A DNA stretch of 64,000 nt, taken from positions 1-64,000 of the forward strand of contig JAISJO010000019.1 of NCBI GenBank assembly GCA_031261485.1, written 5' to 3'. The notes beneath the pieces were generated by a model that had not been told where the DNA came from, did not search any database, and saw nothing but the letters and a program-made list of their open reading frames with translations. The first letter of the stretch is position 1, and each line of letters opens with the position of its first letter. The position numbers and the translations under genes are program-made. This document shows positions 9,733 to 18,079 of the stretch, one piece after another. The DNA is from Propionibacteriaceae bacterium. GTDB taxonomy: Bacteria > Actinomycetota > Actinomycetes > Propionibacteriales > Propionibacteriaceae.

Positions 9733-10528
9733 ACGCTTTAGGAAACGGGGGACTACCCGCAGAATGACGAGGCAGGCTAGTCAGTGTTTGCCTTGGGTCG
9801 GCAGACCCGGAACTGATATCGTGGAGGCCTCGTTCTTGGGGAATGACACTACCGGCAAACTGTCCCATGCAGACGGCGCGAGCCAGAACGCTCAGCCAAC
9901 TGAGGTTGGTCCCGTAGACGCGATGGGGTGGACGCACAAAAGCTCCCTAAAATGTACGTATTCCAGGTTTCGCAGGTACGTAGCGCAACGAATTGGCCAA
10001 ATTCCGAGCAATATTCTCTAGTCACTGAACACGACAGTGTCATGTTGAGTTTCTTACTAGATGTGCACGAGGCAAAGACGGATGTCCGAAGCTGGCAAAC
10101 CCCATGGCCAGCAGTACAGCGGCTCCTGAAGGCTGATGTACAAGGGACAGGAGAAGGATGAGCACACCACTCACAATCGGCAGGCCGGGCGCAGCCCGTA
10201 GAGGGATTCCCCTACGCGGCCTGGACTTTTTCAAGATTCACGGTCGCGGCGCATCCCCTCGCCGTGCCATGGGTCTGGGTCTTGGCGAGTCCACATTCAA
10301 CGAACCGGTCTTGGCGCAGCTTGCGTTGGCAGAACCCCGATCCACGCAAGACAGCCCGCTGAGCAATTCCCCGACCCAAGTCTGGGTAAGAACGACCAGG
10401 CGAGCCGCTCGGCTGCTTGGTGCCACACCTCAACCCGCTGGGCTGGCGTGATGTCGGCAGGCCACACCTGCCGTCCCCCTGAATAACCAACAACAAGGAG
10501 GTGAGTGGAACTGACTCCCTATGGCATG
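9733..10528. other. Intergenic region without a convincing gene
   Basis: About 800 bases separate ydbT from the proA-like fragment. Open frames here are short and have poor codon use and no clear ribosome-binding sites. The segment 9779-9795 resembles the dispersed AACCACTGA repeat. The segment 10181-10223 can fold into a strong nested stem. No tRNA, RNase P or tmRNA signature was seen. It may be decayed accessory DNA at the edge of the island. Confidence 0.5.
10158..10451 (+). CDS. Doubtful small open frame
   Basis: A 97-codon frame beginning MSTPLTIGRPGAARRG has AGGAG four bases before the ATG. The protein is basic and has no recognisable domain. The frame lies over a stable stem-loop, which argues for an RNA or for non-coding DNA. 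I list it only because the stretch is otherwise empty. Confidence 0.2.
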   Translation: MSTPLTIGRPGAARRGIPLRGLDFFKIHGRGASPRRAMGLGLGESTFNEPVLAQLALAEPRSTQDSPLSNSPTQVWVRTTRRAARLLGATPQPAGLA

Positions 10529-10568
10529 AAGTGCCCGCTGGCTTCGGCTCGCGGGCACTTCTCTTTTT
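10529..10568 (+). terminator. Strong intrinsic terminator
   Basis: AAGTGCCCGC and GCGGGCACTT form a perfect 10-bp stem around a 12-base loop, followed by CTCTTTTT on the plus strand. It directly abuts the proA-like repeat. Confidence 0.75.
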
Positions 10569-10575
10569 CAGGCCA

Positions 10576-10635
10576 GTGTCTGACCTTCGCCGGTGATGAC
10601 GTACTTCGTGGCCGTCATCTCTTTGAGACCCATGG
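10576..10635 (-). pseudogene. proA 3'-end fragment, repeat copy A
   Basis: These 60 bases match the 3' end of native proA (16852-16911) at all but about three positions and lie in the same orientation. Read on the minus strand they encode MGLKEMTATKYVITGEGQT and then LA-stop; the native gene ends RV-stop. The different last codons show the fragment came from another proA allele, not from copying the local gene. No upstream proA sequence accompanies it beyond a few codons (SRGA against ARGP). It marks the left boundary of the island like an attachment-site repeat. Confidence 0.85.
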
Positions 10636-10683
10636 CACCCCTGGACTGTTCAGAGACCTGCAGGTGCGTCGGGCGGAAACTGG

Positions 10684-10944
10684 CTATGCGTCGTAGTGGA
10701 ATCGTGCCTGGAGAATGACGATTCCGTCAGGACGTACCTCATAGACAAGGCGATGTTCCTCTGTGATGCGGCGTGACCAGATGTTCCCCAGCTGGTACTT
10801 GAGGGGTTCGGGCTTGCCAATGCCCGAGGTGGGTGAGCGCAGGGCATCGTCAATCAGGCGATTGATTCGCTTGAGAGTGGCCCGGTCGGTTCCCTGCCAC
10901 CACACGTAGTCAGACCACCCGTTCGTTGAGAAGGCGAGAGTCAT
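10684..10944 (-). CDS. yoeB: YoeB/Txe-family mRNA interferase toxin
   Basis: This 86-residue protein is a textbook YoeB: WSDYVWWQGTDRATLKRINR, GIGKPEPLKYQL, then IWSRRITEEHRLVYEV and the C-terminal ARFHYDA. The Glu-His-Arg cluster in EEHRLVY and the terminal His-Tyr form the ribosome-dependent endoribonuclease active site. It is encoded directly after its YefM antitoxin with a 4-base ATGA overlap. It sits 48 bases from the proA fragment, at the left edge of the island. Confidence 0.96.
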   Translation of the reverse strand: MTLAFSTNGWSDYVWWQGTDRATLKRINRLIDDALRSPTSGIGKPEPLKYQLGNIWSRRITEEHRLVYEVRPDGIVILQARFHYDA

Positions 10945-11192
10945 GACCGATCCAGCTCGTGAACGCGGGCCTCTCCCTTGTGGGACTGAGCAATCGACCC
11001 AAGAAGATGCTCAGCATTGGCACGAGTCGAAAACAGATACCGTGTTGTCTGCCAGGCCTCGAAATCGTCCTCCGACACTAGAACGCCGTTGCCAGCCTTG
11101 GACGTGATTCGAACGGTTGTGTGATCCTCATTGACTTCCGCCAAGAGTGGGAACAAGCTTTGCCTCGCCTCGCTCGCCGTCATGGTTGACAT
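10941..11192 (-). CDS. yefM: YefM-family antitoxin
   Basis: This 83-residue antitoxin begins MSTMTASEARQSLFPLLAEV, the Phd/YefM N-terminal DNA-binding domain, and continues with TVRITSKAGNGVLVSEDDFE. The C-terminal part binds YoeB. The start was set by GGAGG 5 bases upstream; a longer frame runs through the operator. It should autorepress through the repeated ATTGTACGA sites upstream. Confidence 0.95.
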   Translation of the reverse strand: MSTMTASEARQSLFPLLAEVNEDHTTVRITSKAGNGVLVSEDDFEAWQTTRYLFSTRANAEHLLGSIAQSHKGEARVHELDRS

Positions 11193-11207
11193 TGTTCCTC
11201 CATCGGT

Positions 11208-11228
11208 ATTGTACGAAATATTGTACGA
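11208..11228. promoter_or_regulatory. Repeated YefM operator half-sites
   Basis: ATTGTACGA occurs twice, 3 bases apart, 15 bases upstream of the antitoxin ATG. Each contains TGTAC, most of the TGTACA core recognised by YefM proteins. Binding is inferred. Confidence 0.6.
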
Positions 11229-11468
11229 CTCGGACGAGGCTGCGTCAACAACCCTTCCGGAGCGAAGGCTCAAGAAGGCTGGACAGATCCAAACGACTCT
11301 TGGTATACGGCACGGGAGTTCCTGTAGTGGGGTTCACAGGGAACAACTCAGACAACACAATCTCCTTGCGCTCCTGACTTAGCCGTCAATCTCGAGATTT
11401 GTTTCCTACCGGAGTAGACGGCGAAGAACGCAACAAGACAAGCACGACTCGGATGGCCTCGCCTGTCC

Positions 11469-14072
11469 CTAGGAAAGCAAACTTGGCCCAGCTTTCGGCG
11501 GGTGCGGCTTTGGCATTGGGAGGTCTGTCTCAGCTGAGGTCTTGGAAGGTTGAGGACTTGGCGGTGTTTCCCCGTTAGGAATGTCCGCCTGTCGAAGATC
11601 GTAGAAGCTCCCGCTCAAGCGAAGGAGGGTACTTGAAATGCTGTCGCTGGCGTCCCGGACCATCGCTATCTGCGTGTAGGCCCGAACCCAATCGTTCTGC
11701 ACTTTCCTCCTGAACTCGTCTTGCACACGCAGTGTTGTCTCGGATTGGTGGCTTGACGACAAGCGCTCCAACACGCGAATTGAGTACTCGAGGAATGCAA
11801 GCCAAGTCACGAAACTCGTCGTATTCTTCTCGAAACTCGCGGCTTTCTCAAATGCAGAGTAAGCGCGATCATAGTACGCATCAACGTCCACCTGAGCACG
11901 TGCAGCCTTTTCAAGGAGAACGGTTCCCAGTGTCGTGAAACTGTACGTATCTGGAAGCAAGTCTGTTGCACGAATTGCAAAAGACTCTGCTTTAGCCAGC
12001 AATGACTCGTCCGACACCGATTCTCGGCGAGCAAGGATCGCACGCTGTTCCCAGTACCGTCCACTCCAGGACCCGAAGACATCAAGTAGCGACTCGTAGA
12101 AAACGTCCAAGTCTGCGCCTGCGAACGCCACAGTCAAGTTGCGACGCGACATAAAGGCACCAATGAGCAGGGCAGTCGGGTTTCGCTCTCTCCGACTCTT
12201 GTCGCCGAGCCTCCCGGACACACTCCGGATTCCGTCTCGCACAATCTCAGCCGCGGCCTCGGCCCCTAGCCTGCCCACCAATGGCTCAAGAGCCATCCAG
12301 CGATGGCGAGTCCAGACACGTGTTCCATCCGTTGAGAGCAAGGACGATAGCTGTGAGTCTTTCCCCACACACCTAACCAGAGCATCACTATCAAGGCCTG
12401 CCATCCGCGCTGCATCGATGACAAGCAAATCGTGATTCACCAGCGATGCATAGGAGGCGACGAGGACCAACTTCTCCTTGGTGGGATCTTCGATACCGAC
12501 AAGCAACTCACCTACCCGACGACCAAATCCAGGGGCATTCTCCAAGTCAGCCATTGAAGAGAAGAGGCCCTTGCCCCGGAAGTGTGCCACCCGTCCCTTG
12601 TCGGGCCTATTGTCGATGATGCCTAGTCGACCAACCCTGGCCAGAGAATCCACAAGTCGGTTTGCGTCGATACTCGATAACCTATCTCGAATACTTGCCA
12701 CCCTATGGTGCGCAAGATGTGCGTTCTGCATTTTCCCGACGATGTTCGCTTCCTCGTGGGAATCATCCACAGCAACGCAGATTACACTGAGCCCTGCGCT
12801 CCGCGCGTCGGCCACAAGCTGATCGACATCGTCAACGAAGGCCGCCACACCGTCGAACAGAAGAGCAAGCGACTTGCCATTGGAGGCGAACCCAAGTATT
12901 GCCTCCTTATCAATTCGCCCAGATCCTCTGAACAGAAAAGTGCGCCAGGAACCCGCGCGAAGATGGTAGCCGACTTGCAAGAGTCCCGTTGAGCGTCCGG
13001 TCAACCTTTTCCCCGTATATGCAATAAGTGTCGAGGTATGAATCGTCTGGCCAATCTGGTCACAATCTGCTTTCGCGCTCGACACCCATTCAAGTTCAGC
13101 AGCAAGGTGATTCTCGATGTCACTCCATAGGGGTTCGTCCCCTCCGAGAAAGTCATGACCTCTCTGGACGGATGGCGACGAAGAAATGTTCAATTCGGTG
13201 AATTGGTGACCGACGCGCATAGCGAGTTCCTCATCTCCCGCGATGCCGTGCTCAAGGTCGAGCCCAGTCAGCTCCCCCCACTCCAGAACAAAATCCTCAG
13301 CTGACAGTTCTACGGGCACTAGGCCCCACCGGATGAGGTCATCGCGGGTTGCCGCAGAAATCGTCTTGGACACGTAGAAGCTAGGCGCGGCATGTGTCGG
13401 CCTACGACTCCGAATGACTGCTTCAATGTCGGGCTCGTCACGCATACGAGCGCCGATAATGACAAAGGGTGAGTTCCCATACGAATCACGGAAGTTGACC
13501 GGCCACGCCGCCGGAGTGGCGGCCGCACCTGCGTACTGGCTGAGCGAGAACACCAGCTTCCTTAAAGCGTCCTGGTCGACTACGCCATGCAGGTGAACCA
13601 CATTAAGTTCTCGGCCTTGACGGTATTCATCATCCCAGTTGAGGGTTTGGATGCGCTTCATTGATTCTGTAGCAACCGACCTGTAGGCCGCCTCGAAAGT
13701 GTCATCTACGTTCAACGTCCAGACCGTGGACCACGGGCTGCGCGCATAGTACTCCATCCAGTAAGGCGGTATGACATTCCAGAAATTGCGCCTGAACCAA
13801 GCATATATCTCGGGCTCGCCGATCTTCTCTGCAGCCCTATCGTATACACGCCAAAGTTGATCGTCTTCCTCAGCAGCCACGCCGAATTGCGTGCATAGAC
13901 GCCTGATCAATTCTTCACCGCCTGACAGGTTCTCACCTGCAGGAGAGACCGAGTCTCTGCTTGCTCCGGCCCCAAGCATCAAGTGGTAGTCACGATTGCG
14001 AACTGCACGTCGGAGAGCGAGCTTTTGCTGCCTCGTAATACCAATGGAATCAGCTGGAAGGCTTGTGGTCAT
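11469..14072 (-). CDS. SIR2-domain protein with P-loop (STAND-like) middle domain, probable phage defence
   Basis: This large protein has an N-terminal SIR2 domain: LMLGAGASRDS at residues 32-41, WTLNVDD at 118-124 (equivalent of the NYD motif) and VVHLHG at 158-163, with IIGARMRDEPD near 205-215. These are the NAD-binding and catalytic positions. Residues 308-319 (FLGGDEPLWSDI) match the linker that precedes the NTPase module in SIR2/STAND proteins. A degenerate Walker A (G-KRLT-GRST, 354-362, Arg for Lys) and a Walker-B-like SLALLFDGV (401-409) follow. The C-terminal 350 residues are helical and TPR-like, ending in a Pro/Ser/Thr-rich tail. Related proteins deplete NAD+ on phage infection. 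The start MTTSLPADS gives 867 residues; an in-frame ATG 46 codons upstream is possible. No Shine-Dalgarno is clear. Confidence 0.8.
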   Translation of the reverse strand: MTTSLPADSIGITRQQKLALRRAVRNRDYHLMLGAGASRDSVSPAGENLSGGEELIRRLCTQFGVAAEEDDQLWRVYDRAAEKIGEPEIYAWFRRNFWNVIPPYWMEYYARSPWSTVWTLNVDDTFEAAYRSVATESMKRIQTLNWDDEYRQGRELNVVHLHGVVDQDALRKLVFSLSQYAGAAATPAAWPVNFRDSYGNSPFVIIGARMRDEPDIEAVIRSRRPTHAAPSFYVSKTISAATRDDLIRWGLVPVELSAEDFVLEWGELTGLDLEHGIAGDEELAMRVGHQFTELNISSSPSVQRGHDFLGGDEPLWSDIENHLAAELEWVSSAKADCDQIGQTIHTSTLIAYTGKRLTGRSTGLLQVGYHLRAGSWRTFLFRGSGRIDKEAILGFASNGKSLALLFDGVAAFVDDVDQLVADARSAGLSVICVAVDDSHEEANIVGKMQNAHLAHHRVASIRDRLSSIDANRLVDSLARVGRLGIIDNRPDKGRVAHFRGKGLFSSMADLENAPGFGRRVGELLVGIEDPTKEKLVLVASYASLVNHDLLVIDAARMAGLDSDALVRCVGKDSQLSSLLSTDGTRVWTRHRWMALEPLVGRLGAEAAAEIVRDGIRSVSGRLGDKSRRERNPTALLIGAFMSRRNLTVAFAGADLDVFYESLLDVFGSWSGRYWEQRAILARRESVSDESLLAKAESFAIRATDLLPDTYSFTTLGTVLLEKAARAQVDVDAYYDRAYSAFEKAASFEKNTTSFVTWLAFLEYSIRVLERLSSSHQSETTLRVQDEFRRKVQNDWVRAYTQIAMVRDASDSISSTLLRLSGSFYDLRQADIPNGETPPSPQPSKTSAETDLPMPKPHPPKAGPSLLS

Positions 14073-14579
14073 GGGTAAAGCATGACAGTAACGTCGCTGC
14101 GTTGTTGGCGAAGGCCAAAGTGTGGGATTCACTGTGGCTTCGGCGAGGCGGATTGCTAGAACGGAGACTCTCGTTGACAACACTGTGTCCAAGTCATGTT
14201 TCTTTCTCACACCAGGAGTTTCATCCCGACAGTCTGCCGGACGGAAAGGAACCCTGCTGCGGAGAGGGGCTTCTCATTAGCCACCCTCCAACTCGTGCGG
14301 AATCGACTTGGAACTGACGGAAGGACGGCAAGAATCATCACAAAGAGACACCTCCTCGGGCGCCAGCCTCGAGAGTGACCAAGGAGGACAGAATACTCCC
14401 GTCAGTTGGGCTGGACAGCGCAATAGGCAGGGTCCGTGGTGCGGTGCCGATACTGCCATCAACTGTTCGACCAGAGGCCGAGAATCTGGTCTCCATTGAT
14501 TCAGATGAGACGAGGTCAATCTCAGAGCGCCTGCCGACGAGTCTTCGTACTAGAAGCGCAGTGGCAGGTTACCTCTACT
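14073..14579. other. Region between the SIR2 gene and repeat copy B
   Basis: About 500 bases with no strong gene. A 75-codon plus-strand frame (14375-14602) has plausible residue composition (ILPSVGLDSAIGRVRGAVP, RSAVAGYLYSLFRASV) but starts at GTG without a ribosome-binding site and ends inside repeat copy B. It could be the 3' remnant of a gene cut off by a recombination event. Confidence 0.4.
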
Positions 14580-14617
14580 CTCTTTTTCGGGCCAGTGTCT
14601 GACCCTCACCAGTGGCG
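14580..14617 (-). repeat. Partial proA 3'-end repeat, copy B
   Basis: The core GTGTCTGACCCTCACCAGTG at 14595 aligns with the proA terminus in copies A and C; on the minus strand it encodes TGEGQTLA. It also shares with copy A the flank CTCTTTTTCRGGCCA, which is not part of proA, so A and B derive from the same kind of donor sequence. Only about 25 bases of proA homology remain. It divides the island into two cargo segments. Confidence 0.65.
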
Positions 14618-15298
14618 ATGAAAACGGACCAATCGGATAAGGTCATTCACATACGTTCTGCTGGAAAGACCCACGTGAAGAAGACACTGATCAAGCGCAC
14701 GCTCATGACTATTGTCGGGGTCAGTCTTGTCTCCGTTGCGGTTGCTCTGCTGCGCCTGTCAGACTTGGGAACGGATCCCTACACCGTTTTGGTGATGGGT
14801 CTGGCCCATGCGTTTGATTCCACATATTTCGTGATTTTCACCATTGTCAGCGTCGCTCTGCTGGTGGGCGCCCTCATTTTCGCTCGAAACCTCCTGGGAT
14901 TTGGGACAGTCTGTGTCCTCTTGCTGATAGGCGCCATCGCAGATCAGGTGTTCAACGTCCTAGTGAACGTTTTCCCAGACCCGACTGTTCTCACGCGGAG
15001 CCTACTGCTCATAGGTGGCATCGCCGTCATGTGCCTTGGCTCAAGCCTGTACTACACGGCTGACTTGGGTGTGTCACCTTATGACTGCGTCGCACTCAGG
15101 CTTTCGAGAAAACACCCGAAGAGATTCAAGTACATACGCATCACGGCGGACTTGACCTGTACAGGGATTGGTTTCGTTCTCGGAGGCACAGTCGGGGTGG
15201 GCACTGTTGTCACTGCCTTCTTCATGGGGCCCCTCATCGCCTGGATGAATGAGCACATCGCCAAGCCGCTGCTGAAGGAGAAGGCCAGCGCAGACTAG
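14612..15298 (+). CDS. YczE/YitT-like integral membrane protein
   Basis: This 228-residue protein has five or six membrane helices starting at about residue 28 and the two family motifs RLSDLGTDPYTVLVMG and YYTADLGVSPYDCVAL, an internal repeat typical of YczE-like proteins. Transport substrate and role are unknown. The start is GTG at this position or ATG six bases later. Both lie inside or at the edge of repeat copy B, and no Shine-Dalgarno is visible, so the native 5' signals may have been replaced when the repeat formed. Confidence 0.82.
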   Translation: MAMKTDQSDKVIHIRSAGKTHVKKTLIKRTLMTIVGVSLVSVAVALLRLSDLGTDPYTVLVMGLAHAFDSTYFVIFTIVSVALLVGALIFARNLLGFGTVCVLLLIGAIADQVFNVLVNVFPDPTVLTRSLLLIGGIAVMCLGSSLYYTADLGVSPYDCVALRLSRKHPKRFKYIRITADLTCTGIGFVLGGTVGVGTVVTAFFMGPLIAWMNEHIAKPLLKEKASAD

Positions 15299-15367
15299 TC
15301 CTCGCCCACGCATCCCCGGTGGAGACGCGCAGAACAACACACAAACCTTTGAGTTCTCTTGTCGGCA

Positions 15368-16807
15368 CTAAAGCAGAGTCGCAATGAACGCAAACGCCGC
15401 TGCTTCGTCAACCGGTCCAAAATGGACACCGCCTCCAGTTGTCCACGTGGAGTCCGGAGGGTTGGTTATGGCGACGTCGATTTCTGAATAGCTTTCGGCG
15501 CGGACATCGACAACGACCACGGAAGTGACGCCCTGATAGCCGTCGGACCCATCGCTGTATGTGCCGTACAGGTCTCCTTTCCTGAACTTGATCATGACGA
15601 GGTGATGGCAGTCGTTGGGGCTCACGGCAATACGGTCCACTGGGACGCCGTACGCGCTGGCATCAAGTCTGTCGCCGCCCAACCGGTGCTCTGATGTGTA
15701 GCCATAGCTGCTGACGTACACCTTGTCGTCGATCCTCGCCGCAGTGCCAGTGTTGTCCAGCGTTTGATAGAAGTCGAGGTACGCCTCTCGCCATTCCCCA
15801 AATTCTAGGTCCGTGCCGTATTGGAATTGGTCATAGGACTCTATTGAAAACTCTGCGGCAGGGCGGCCTTGAATAGTCTCCATGGTGGGACACGACCTAG
15901 CCGCGTCCATGACGTTCACGTCCTGCAAGCTCACAGCAGTCGGATCTTTCCAACTGCTTCCGTTCAGGGTGGCGAGCGCCTCGTTCGCAGAGGCCGCAAA
16001 ACGCACCTCCCGAAGGGCGAGGCAGCCAGCGAAGACGGCAACCGAGTCATAGGACACGGAGAAATTCGGTGACACCTGCCCCTTGCTGCCAGTGGATTGG
16101 CGTTTGTTGGGAACGATCCACAATGTTTCCACCTTTGGTTGTGCGTCCAGCCCTGCCAGGGAGTACCAGAATGAAGACCCACGAGACAACTCAGGGACCA
16201 AAGTCAGGTCGATGATCAGTCTCTCGAGCGATTCCAGCGCAGGAGTGTCAGCGAGCACCAACTCATGGCCCACCGCCAAGGTCACAGGACAACTGACGCC
16301 TGCGAGGGGACCCAACTCCGCCGCGCTGACAGGCGCCGCGGCGCCTCTCGTGTCGACGATCAACGAAGAGCATGGGATGGCACTCAGATAGCTGTACCGA
16401 CTCCACTGCGCATCCGTCGGCCGAAAACCCCTCACAAGGTCGATGGAAACGGATATCCTCTTGCCGTCGCTGGGGCCTGCGATGGCGTCGAACAGCGGTT
16501 GGCTGTCAGCATTGACGTAGAGTTCGAGCGAATCGGCGCTTGGGTCGTACTCCGCATAGCCGATGTCCTCTTCAGACGCCTCTTGGGCTGCCTTTGCCGC
16601 GAAATACGCCGACTCGGTTGGCGTGCGACCGACCGGTATAGCTGTGTCCTTCGCACTCGAACCACCCGAACCGCTCGAGGCTGGCGCACCGCAACCAGCG
16701 AGGGATAGGCACGACAACACCAGTACCAACGATACAAGAGTTGTTACCCCATGTCTGGCTGTCGCGGAACCACCTTTGGGAAATGCTGCCCCACCTGTGC
16801 TACGCAT
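15368..16807 (-). CDS. Secreted lipoprotein of unknown function
   Basis: This 479-residue protein has a long lipoprotein signal peptide: a basic start, a hydrophobic stretch (TTLVSLVLVLSCLSLAGC) and the lipobox cysteine at residue 39. A Ser/Gly-rich linker (APASSGSGGSSAKD) follows, then a large extracellular domain of about 400 residues that I do not recognise. Parts such as LESLERLIIDLTLVPEL and CLALREVRFAAS hint at irregular leucine-rich-type spacing. The ATG has GGGAGGC 7 bases upstream. It is the last cargo gene of the island before proA. Confidence 0.8.
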   Translation of the reverse strand: MRSTGGAAFPKGGSATARHGVTTLVSLVLVLSCLSLAGCGAPASSGSGGSSAKDTAIPVGRTPTESAYFAAKAAQEASEEDIGYAEYDPSADSLELYVNADSQPLFDAIAGPSDGKRISVSIDLVRGFRPTDAQWSRYSYLSAIPCSSLIVDTRGAAAPVSAAELGPLAGVSCPVTLAVGHELVLADTPALESLERLIIDLTLVPELSRGSSFWYSLAGLDAQPKVETLWIVPNKRQSTGSKGQVSPNFSVSYDSVAVFAGCLALREVRFAASANEALATLNGSSWKDPTAVSLQDVNVMDAARSCPTMETIQGRPAAEFSIESYDQFQYGTDLEFGEWREAYLDFYQTLDNTGTAARIDDKVYVSSYGYTSEHRLGGDRLDASAYGVPVDRIAVSPNDCHHLVMIKFRKGDLYGTYSDGSDGYQGVTSVVVVDVRAESYSEIDVAITNPPDSTWTTGGGVHFGPVDEAAAFAFIATLL

Positions 16808-16843
16808 GTCTTTGCCTCCCTGCCGCCTTGGCTCTTTCATCTT

Positions 16844-18079
16844 TCAAACCCGTGTCTGACCTTCGCCGGTGATAACATACTTCGTGGCCGTCATCTCTTT
16901 GAGTCCCATGGGGCCTCTGGCGTGGAGTTTCTGTGTGGAGATACCAATCTCTGCCCCGAAGCCGAACTGTCCCCCATCCACGAAACGGCTGGACGCATTG
17001 ACGAGGACGCACGCGGCATCCACTTCCGCGACGAACAACCGTTGGTGTGCGAGATCGTTCGTGAGGATGGTCTCCGAATGGCCTGACGTGTGCTCCCGGA
17101 TGAAACTAATCGCCTCTTCGACACCTGCGACAATGCCCACACGCAAGTCCAGGGACAGGAACTCGGCGTCCCATTGATCGGCCTTGTCAATCCGGGGATC
17201 GAGCGCCATGGCAGCCTCGTCGCCATGGACTTTCACCCCGGCGGCAACCAGGGCGTCCACAATCTCGGGCACGTATTTCGCCGCAATGTCCTCGTGGACC
17301 AGCAGGGTCTCCAAGGCATTACACACCGATGGGCGCTGGACCTTGGCATTGAGAACGATAGCGGTGGCCTTCTCCAAGTCAGCCGAAGAATCCACAAAGA
17401 TATGGCAGTTGCCTGTTCCTGTTTCGATGACGGGGACCTGCGAACCGGTGACCACGGCGGCGATCAGGGAAGCGCCACCCCTGGGGATGAGAAGGTCCAC
17501 GAGCCCGCGTGCCTTCATCATGTCGCCGGTGACCTCATGCCCGCCCTCGACCAAGTTCACGGCGTTCGGGTCGATACCTGCGTTGACAAGCCCTTCCTTC
17601 AGAGCCGCGACGACTGCCCGGTTGGAGTGGATGGCGGTGGACGACCCCCGCAATAGAACGGCATTTCCCGCTTTGAGGCAGATACCTGCTGCATCGGCGG
17701 TGACGTTGGGGCGAGCTTCATAGATGATGCCGATGACCCCCATCGGTACCCTCACTTGGTCGATATGGAGACCATTGGCCAGGTCCCAGCCAGCCACGGT
17801 CTCTCCCACCGGGTCGGGCAGGGCAACGAGGTCGAGCAGCCCTTCCACCATCGCGTCCACACGAGACACGGTCAACGACAGGCGGTCGATGAGGGAGACA
17901 TCCATACCGGCGTCTTGTCCAGTCTCCACATCAAGAGCATTCGCGGCAAGGATGTTGGACATGTGGGCGGCGAGCGAATCGGCCATGGATTGCAAACTGG
18001 CGTCCTTTGCCCCTCTTGTCAGAGTCGCAAGAGTGATGGCCGCTTGTCTTGCGGAGTGAGCCTGGTCAATGAATGTCAT
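16844..18079 (-). CDS. proA: Glutamate-5-semialdehyde dehydrogenase (gamma-glutamyl phosphate reductase)
   Basis: ProA reduces gamma-glutamyl phosphate to glutamate semialdehyde with NADPH, the second step of proline synthesis. The 411 residues are normal length. Seen in the sequence: MGVIGIIYEARPNVTADAAG, AVLLRGSSTAIHSN, and the catalytic-cysteine region AKVQRPSVCNALETLLV. The C-terminus MGLKEMTATKYVITGEGQT-RV is complete. It follows proB by 9 bases. Its last 60 bases are repeated at 10576-10635, so the gene end has served as an insertion point while remaining functional. Confidence 0.97.
   Translation of the reverse strand: MTFIDQAHSARQAAITLATLTRGAKDASLQSMADSLAAHMSNILAANALDVETGQDAGMDVSLIDRLSLTVSRVDAMVEGLLDLVALPDPVGETVAGWDLANGLHIDQVRVPMGVIGIIYEARPNVTADAAGICLKAGNAVLLRGSSTAIHSNRAVVAALKEGLVNAGIDPNAVNLVEGGHEVTGDMMKARGLVDLLIPRGGASLIAAVVTGSQVPVIETGTGNCHIFVDSSADLEKATAIVLNAKVQRPSVCNALETLLVHEDIAAKYVPEIVDALVAAGVKVHGDEAAMALDPRIDKADQWDAEFLSLDLRVGIVAGVEEAISFIREHTSGHSETILTNDLAHQRLFVAEVDAACVLVNASSRFVDGGQFGFGAEIGISTQKLHARGPMGLKEMTATKYVITGEGQTRV
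16852..16911 (-). repeat. Native proA 3' end, repeat copy C
   Basis: This is the in-gene copy of the repeat found at 10576-10635 and partly at 14595-14614. The direct-repeat arrangement with 6.2 kb between copies A and C resembles the attachment sites of an element that integrates into the 3' end of proA. Confidence 0.75.

Follow-up and report, generated by a model that had tools for sequence, protein, structure and literature searches.

A minus-strand gene in a Propionibacteriaceae bacterium (assembly GCA_031261485.1, contig JAISJO010000019.1) encodes a SIR2 domain joined to a STAND-like NTPase domain whose Walker A loop has no lysine. STAND and NLR immune proteins are usually pictured as nucleotide switches with an indispensable Walker A lysine. 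The original prediction for this gene, made from the letters of the window (the whole analysed stretch of 64,000 nucleotides, positions 1 to 64,000 of the contig), was a likely anti-phage effector with a degenerate NTPase domain.

Domain layout and structural relatives

The ORF ran from an ATG at 14072 to a stop at 11469 on the minus strand as 867 uninterrupted codons, and the plus strand over the same interval held stops throughout. One copy was present in the source genome (2.8 Mb, 112 contigs). Profile search and structure prediction, which had been proposed as checks, recovered both expected domains. SIR2_2 (PF13289) was matched at residues 116–224 (E = 1.5e-7, 32 bits against a curated cut-off of 24.5) and nSTAND_NTPase5 (PF25199) at residues 307–433 (E = 6.2e-10, 39.5 bits against a cut-off of 34), and the AlphaFold2 model obtained from alignment A2 had a mean pLDDT of 86.5 and a pTM of 0.85 (Table 1).

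The SIR2 motifs predicted for the N-terminus were complete, with LGAGAS at residues 33–38, WTLNVDD at 118–124 (N121, D123, and D124), and HLHG at 160–163 (H162), corresponding to the GAGxS, TxNxD, and HG motifs of SIR2 NADases. Asn121, Asp124, and His162 were present as named in advance, and N121, D123, D124, and H162 were invariant across 25 homologs in the alignment. The stretch FLGGDEPLWSDI at residues 308–319 had been taken for a linker preceding the P-loop; it is there, but it is not a separate element, since the Pfam match, running from residue 307, counts it as the opening part of the nSTAND_NTPase5 family. A Walker B strand was found (LLFD, hydrophobic and ending in Asp407), and the Walker A loop GKRLTGRST departed from GxxxxGK[ST] by its missing Lys. 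The expected TPR-like C-terminus appeared in the model as an all-helical repeat from about residue 500 to 830, but no Pfam TPR family matched the 867-aa protein, the C-terminus included. This repeat contains a conserved RYWEQRA at residues 672–678 of the protein, as seen in the alignment, and solved Avs5 has a similar W-x-Q motif. The Pfam scan of the protein also gave no match to nSTAND3 (PF20720), which 4 of 25 homologs matched weakly, and no AlbA_2 or OB-fold domain.

Table 1. Positions of the SIR2-STAND gene, its domains and the features of the proA island in the window
Feature	Positions	Strand	Basis
SIR2-nSTAND5-helical repeat protein, 867 aa	11469..14072	-	ORF; Pfam; model pLDDT 86.5, pTM 0.85
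SIR2 NADase-like domain, ~residues 12-271	13260..14040	-	Pfam SIR2_2 116-224; motif conservation
nSTAND_NTPase5 region, ~residues 307-500, including HDFLGGDEPLW signature	12573..13154	-	Pfam PF25199 307-433
Lysine-less Walker A loop GKRLTGRST, residues 354-362	12987..13013	-	Invariant Arg356; Arg360 at usual Lys position
Walker B region LFDG, residues 405-408	12849..12860	-	Asp407 invariant in 29/29; Ala at 411, usually acid
C-terminal helical repeat, presumed sensor, ~residues 501-830	11583..12572	-	Model secondary structure; alignment
YoeB-like toxin	10684..10944	-	Pfam YoeB_toxin E=1.3e-34
Phd/YefM antitoxin	10941..11192	-	Pfam PF02604 E=1.4e-15
att-like copy A = displaced proA 3' end (residues 386-409, TGA)	10560..10648	-	57/60 identical to proA end
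att-like copy B, 36-nt direct repeat	14579..14614	+	89% identical to copy A
att-like copy C inside 3' end of intact proA (16844-18079, minus strand)	16852..16911	+	

The best Foldseek match in the PDB was EfAvs5 (9jap, E = 1e-22), followed by the AVAST5 filament 9nc9, human SAMD9, DSR2, ThsA, and KomBC. Overall TM-scores were about 0.3 for the long matches, with an rmsd above 20 Å for Avs5 and 13–14% identity to proven Avs5 in the structural alignment; such low scores are as expected if the domains are arranged differently or the state differs. Using sequence alone, the A2 profile matched 9jap over positions 8–703 (E = 1.5e-24) and 9nah over 31–434 (E = 3.6e-19), so the Avs5 homology spans the SIR2 domain, the NTPase domain, and part of the helical region instead of the SIR2 domain only.

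Like EfAvs5 (9jap), AVAST5 (9nc9, 9nah), and PaAvs5, the protein carries an N-terminal SIR2 NADase-like domain, a central STAND NTPase, and a C-terminal helical repeat in a single gene. The earlier assignment as "Avs5-type" was therefore correct as to homology and probably as to the way of working, but not as to strict membership. The NCBIfam model NF041814 for Avs5 gave 15.5 bits against its equivalog cut-off of 1000 bits and was rejected, and published Avs5 has nSTAND3 where the source protein has NTPase5 (PMC12931631). In addition, PaAvs5 requires the Walker A Lys363 (PMC12931631), which has no counterpart here, and PaAvs5-1 has an NG motif in place of the canonical HG of the source protein. 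Judged from sequence and model together, the protein is probably an NAD+-consuming phage-defence protein akin to Avs5 broadly defined, but it falls outside Avs5 strictly defined.

SAMD9/SAMD9L of animals and actinomycetes, the next fold match after Avs5, share a SIR2-like domain, a STAND-like P-loop without the Walker A Lys, and TPR repeats. In SAMD9, by contrast, the loop is GGT/S, the SIR2 domain is a variant one, and AlbA_2 and OB-fold domains are present in addition; the source protein has a GRST loop, Arg at loop position 3, and a complete SIR2 active site. It thus lies outside the SAMD9 family as defined by a Lys-less GG[TS] P-loop with AlbA_2 and OB-fold domains. DSR1 and DSR2, phage-triggered NADases, pair a SIR2 effector with a long helical sensor, as predicted for the source protein, and DSR2 is among its fold matches, but DSR2 is not known to have a STAND NTPase domain, and none of the DSR models in PADLOC matched. 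ThsA of Thoeris shares the SIR2 NADase domain. It senses its signal through a SLOG domain and has a TIR protein as partner, neither of which was seen for the source protein, and identity with ThsA was rejected because the only match was a weak one to the SIR2 domain (PADLOC, E = 0.0024). The literature searches made for NTPase5 returned nothing specific.

The lysine-less Walker A loop

Among 29 aligned proteins, position 360 of the Walker A loop was Lys in 17, and the remaining 12, all of them actinobacterial, had Arg (eight proteins, including the source protein), Ser, Leu, Leu, or Thr. A maximum-likelihood tree of the 29 proteins was calculated with the P-loop columns left out. The 12 lysine-less proteins formed one side of a branch with a support of 100, which points to a single loss of the lysine.

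Site rates within these 12 proteins placed position 360 at percentile 53, and Arg356, present in 12/12, at percentile 3, close to N121 (1), H162 (2), D407 (4), and S361 (5). G359 was invariant, G354 was kept in 11/12, and L357, S/T361, and L364 were conserved, giving the clade motif GxR-L-[TS]-G-x-[ST]; Asp407 of Walker B was invariant in all 29 proteins. Going by these patterns of conservation, the Walker A change does not reflect decay and is not peculiar to the source protein, and the label "degenerate" is misleading, because the rest of the P-loop and Asp407 are under strong constraint. The Arg-for-Lys replacement described in the original prediction exists in GKRLTGRST at residues 354–362, but the K-to-R exchange is not the key feature, as its position is free to be R, S, L, or T and R356 is invariant.

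An Arg at the position of Arg356 also occurred beside the canonical Lys in two lysine-bearing homologs, L042 from Rhodococcus (GDRFSGKT) and L081 (GSRFTGKS). The loop of the solved AVAST5 structure 9nah, GRRFSGKS, has Arg at the equivalent position next to its Lys. These three loops indicate that the Arg can precede the loss of the Lys, and the aligned sequences suggest an order in which the Arg was gained first and the Lys lost later. L042 was placed as the sister of the lysine-less clade with a weak support of 50. The association between Arg gain and Lys loss comes from one loss event only.

Related proteins offer precedents on both sides. K363A in Walker A of PaAvs5 abolishes immunity and Walker B E410Q does not, which its authors read as the Walker B motif serving binding and not hydrolysis; the immunity requires Walker A and SIR2 residues (PMC12931631). 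The Walker A lysine of SAMD9 has become glycine, an upstream His was proposed as its stand-in, and terminases with an upstream Lys were mentioned by the SAMD9 authors (PMC5445408). The lysine-less clade seems to add another independent case to that of SAMD9, here with Arg, and from the alignment we infer that Arg356 took over phosphate binding from the Walker A Lys. Because Arg356 would bind the phosphates, the switch may bind nucleotide while hydrolysing it poorly or, as the original prediction had proposed, not at all, although we put this only tentatively, at somewhat below an even chance. Ala at position 411 in the source protein and its near relative L034, where most other homologs have an acid, fits poor hydrolysis by these two proteins.

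Relatives, neighbours and the island at proA

Queried with an alignment of two sequences, 84,980 species genomes yielded 25 loci. Identities were 63% in Kocuria, 62% in Pseudarthrobacter, and 50–52% in Streptomyces; further homologs came from Amycolatopsis and Paenarthrobacter and, at 22–34%, from other actinobacteria, proteobacteria, acidobacteria, and Chloroflexi. Both Pfam domains were present in all 25 rows of alignment A2 (24 homologs besides the query), and the homolog ORFs were intact in nearly all loci, so that the pairing of SIR2 with nSTAND_NTPase5 is, on these alignments, far beyond chance. Two relatives were decayed: L086:1135-2133 is the remnant of a frame in genome G1263, which belongs to another family, and at L056:7971-9470 a Stenotrophomonas MAG has only a truncated ORF. 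Phylum-wide counts of PF25199 were set aside, because sub-cut-off matches from generic P-loops occurred in 14/14 controls and 389/397 genomes; only 16 of the 397 genomes had a match above the curated cut-off.

Homologs were found in 1 of 19 genomes of the same genus and in 2 of 199 genomes of the family. The closest relatives belong to the Micrococcaceae and the sole homolog in the own family is just 33% identical, which indicates horizontal transfer. The GC content of the gene was 55.5% against 60.1% (sd 1.7) in equal windows outside the island, and its GC3 was 0.59 against 0.71–0.76 for proA and ilvC. No relatives were found in the phage records, plasmid records, and IMG/VR contigs searched. 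Taken on composition and relationships, the gene is real, intact, and horizontally moved.

When 293 neighbour ORFs of the homologs were all compared with one another, only two families recurred, each at two loci. The absence of a neighbour family at more than two loci agrees with the earlier statement that the gene stands alone and argues against an obligate partner, so the protein would act alone or with host factors. Single neighbours included an XhoI-type restriction-modification pair (L034) and type IV restriction enzymes (L038 and L039), and the neighbour set also held Dsr1-like, BrxC, and CBASS-cyclase genes. Large SIR2 proteins adjoined two lysine-bearing homologs (L048:3800-7294 and L054:10962-14576), and these are presumably the two Dsr1 matches given by PADLOC. 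As a control, the same scan applied to housekeeping genes of the window gave 10 families, mostly generic models of the ATPase, mads, and DndA/SspA types. The frequent occurrence of defence genes near the homologs is an indication rather than a statistical result, as the control differs from the neighbour set in genome and size. The Streptomyces homologs L044 and L035 had related neighbours (L044:6645-7760 and L035:8326-9372). A Macro domain is present in the former; domains of this type can bind ADP-ribose, which NAD+ hydrolysis releases, and the gene is a possible accessory.

In the window, the adjacent toxin-antitoxin pair was confirmed as YoeB and Phd/YefM (Table 1), and support for the mobile island that had been predicted came from three att-like repeats and from the displaced tail of proA. 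A 36-nt direct repeat (10560-10595 and 14579-14614) flanks the toxin-antitoxin pair and the SIR2-STAND gene. Its core was absent elsewhere in the genome at up to three mismatches, and exact matches to a 20-nt core were limited to three sites in the genome, 10576, 14595, and 16852, which share one direction. From 10576, a 60-nt stretch was 57/60 identical to the proA 3' end at 16852-16911 and read MGLKEMTATKYVITGEGQTLA-stop; a protein search with ProA retrieved this tail as a separate match (10577-10648, 88%, E = 3.6e-6), and a strong hairpin followed it (~10528-10561, z = -4.2). PMC4383910 gives a regenerated gene end with a displaced fragment as the classical mark of island ends, and we accordingly read the locus as an insertion of ~6.3 kb at the proA 3' end.

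The arrangement of the repeats suggests two small elements in tandem, 10576-14594 with the toxin-antitoxin pair and the SIR2-STAND gene and 14595-16851 with YitT-like and lipoprotein genes. The YitT-like membrane protein (14612-15298) had a weak DUF6198 match and was not found elsewhere in the genus, and the lipoprotein-like 490-aa protein (15368-16840) had no Pfam match. No integrase was found inside the island, so the elements would depend on one supplied in trans, or they are remnants. Among the relatives looked at, no clean empty proA site was found, as the genes left of the island were not adjacent to proA, and acquisition of the island by another recombination route is possible. The island gave no Rfam match to a structured RNA, and the searches made of the literature returned nothing specific on proA as an integration site.

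Proposed function and its meaning

Sequence, model, and analogy together make it probable that this horizontally acquired gene encodes a stand-alone phage-defence protein with an Avs5-like mode of action. The helical-repeat C-terminus would sense a phage product, upon which the STAND domain would change state with bound nucleotide and drive oligomerization, and the N-terminal SIR2 domains would then hydrolyse NAD+ and stop the infection. In this scheme, Arg356 of the GxRLTGxS loop would bind the phosphates in place of the lost Walker A Lys. The anti-phage role expected from the start is backed by the fold matches to Avs5, DSR2, and ThsA and by the defence genes next to homologs. However, the loss of the Lys could mean a different switch, since replacing it with Ala in PaAvs5 kills immunity.

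In an alternative reading, the P-loop domain has lost nucleotide binding altogether and is a scaffold, with activation by ligand and SIR2 oligomerization alone, as in DSR2. The loss of the Walker A Lys in 12 proteins, the missing acid at 411 kept by most homologs, and the place of DSR2 among the fold matches all agree with it, but a nucleotide-free loop should erode, and yet G354, L357, G359, S/T361, L364, and D407 are conserved and R356 is among the slowest sites. We regard the scaffold as unlikely. The presence of Arg at the Lys position in eight of the 12, including the source protein, would permit a simpler account in which Arg360 is a one-for-one substitute and the NTPase cycle is unchanged; in sister proteins with intact ORFs the residue is S, L, L, or T, and this position evolves at an average rate while R356 never varies, which makes such a substitution very improbable.

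The SIR2 domain might also serve a purpose other than NAD+ destruction against phages, such as ADP-ribosyl transfer, plasmid exclusion, or stress. Several activities are known for SIR2 folds, and the homologs are rare and scattered within the genus and the family. Since the nearest solved relatives (Avs5, DSR2, ThsA, and KomBC) are defence proteins, the catalytic N, D, and H are all present, and defence genes adjoin homologs, such a purpose seems still less probable than the scaffold. Returning to the Avs5-like protein, we hold it conceivable, with slightly more doubt than for nucleotide binding without efficient hydrolysis, that the clade rebuilt its nucleotide switch, the third-position Arg of the P-loop replacing the Lys, into a hydrolysis-independent bind-and-lock sensor convergent with human SAMD9.

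What sets this locus apart, as far as the alignments reach, is that its whole clade has lost the Walker A lysine and conserves an arginine close by. A natural clade thus lacks the lysine, keeps the rest of the loop, and has another basic residue fixed. Its lysine-bearing and lysine-less sisters offer a direct comparison of hydrolysis with mere binding in STAND activation, and a bacterial parallel to human SAMD9 and its lysine-less loop.
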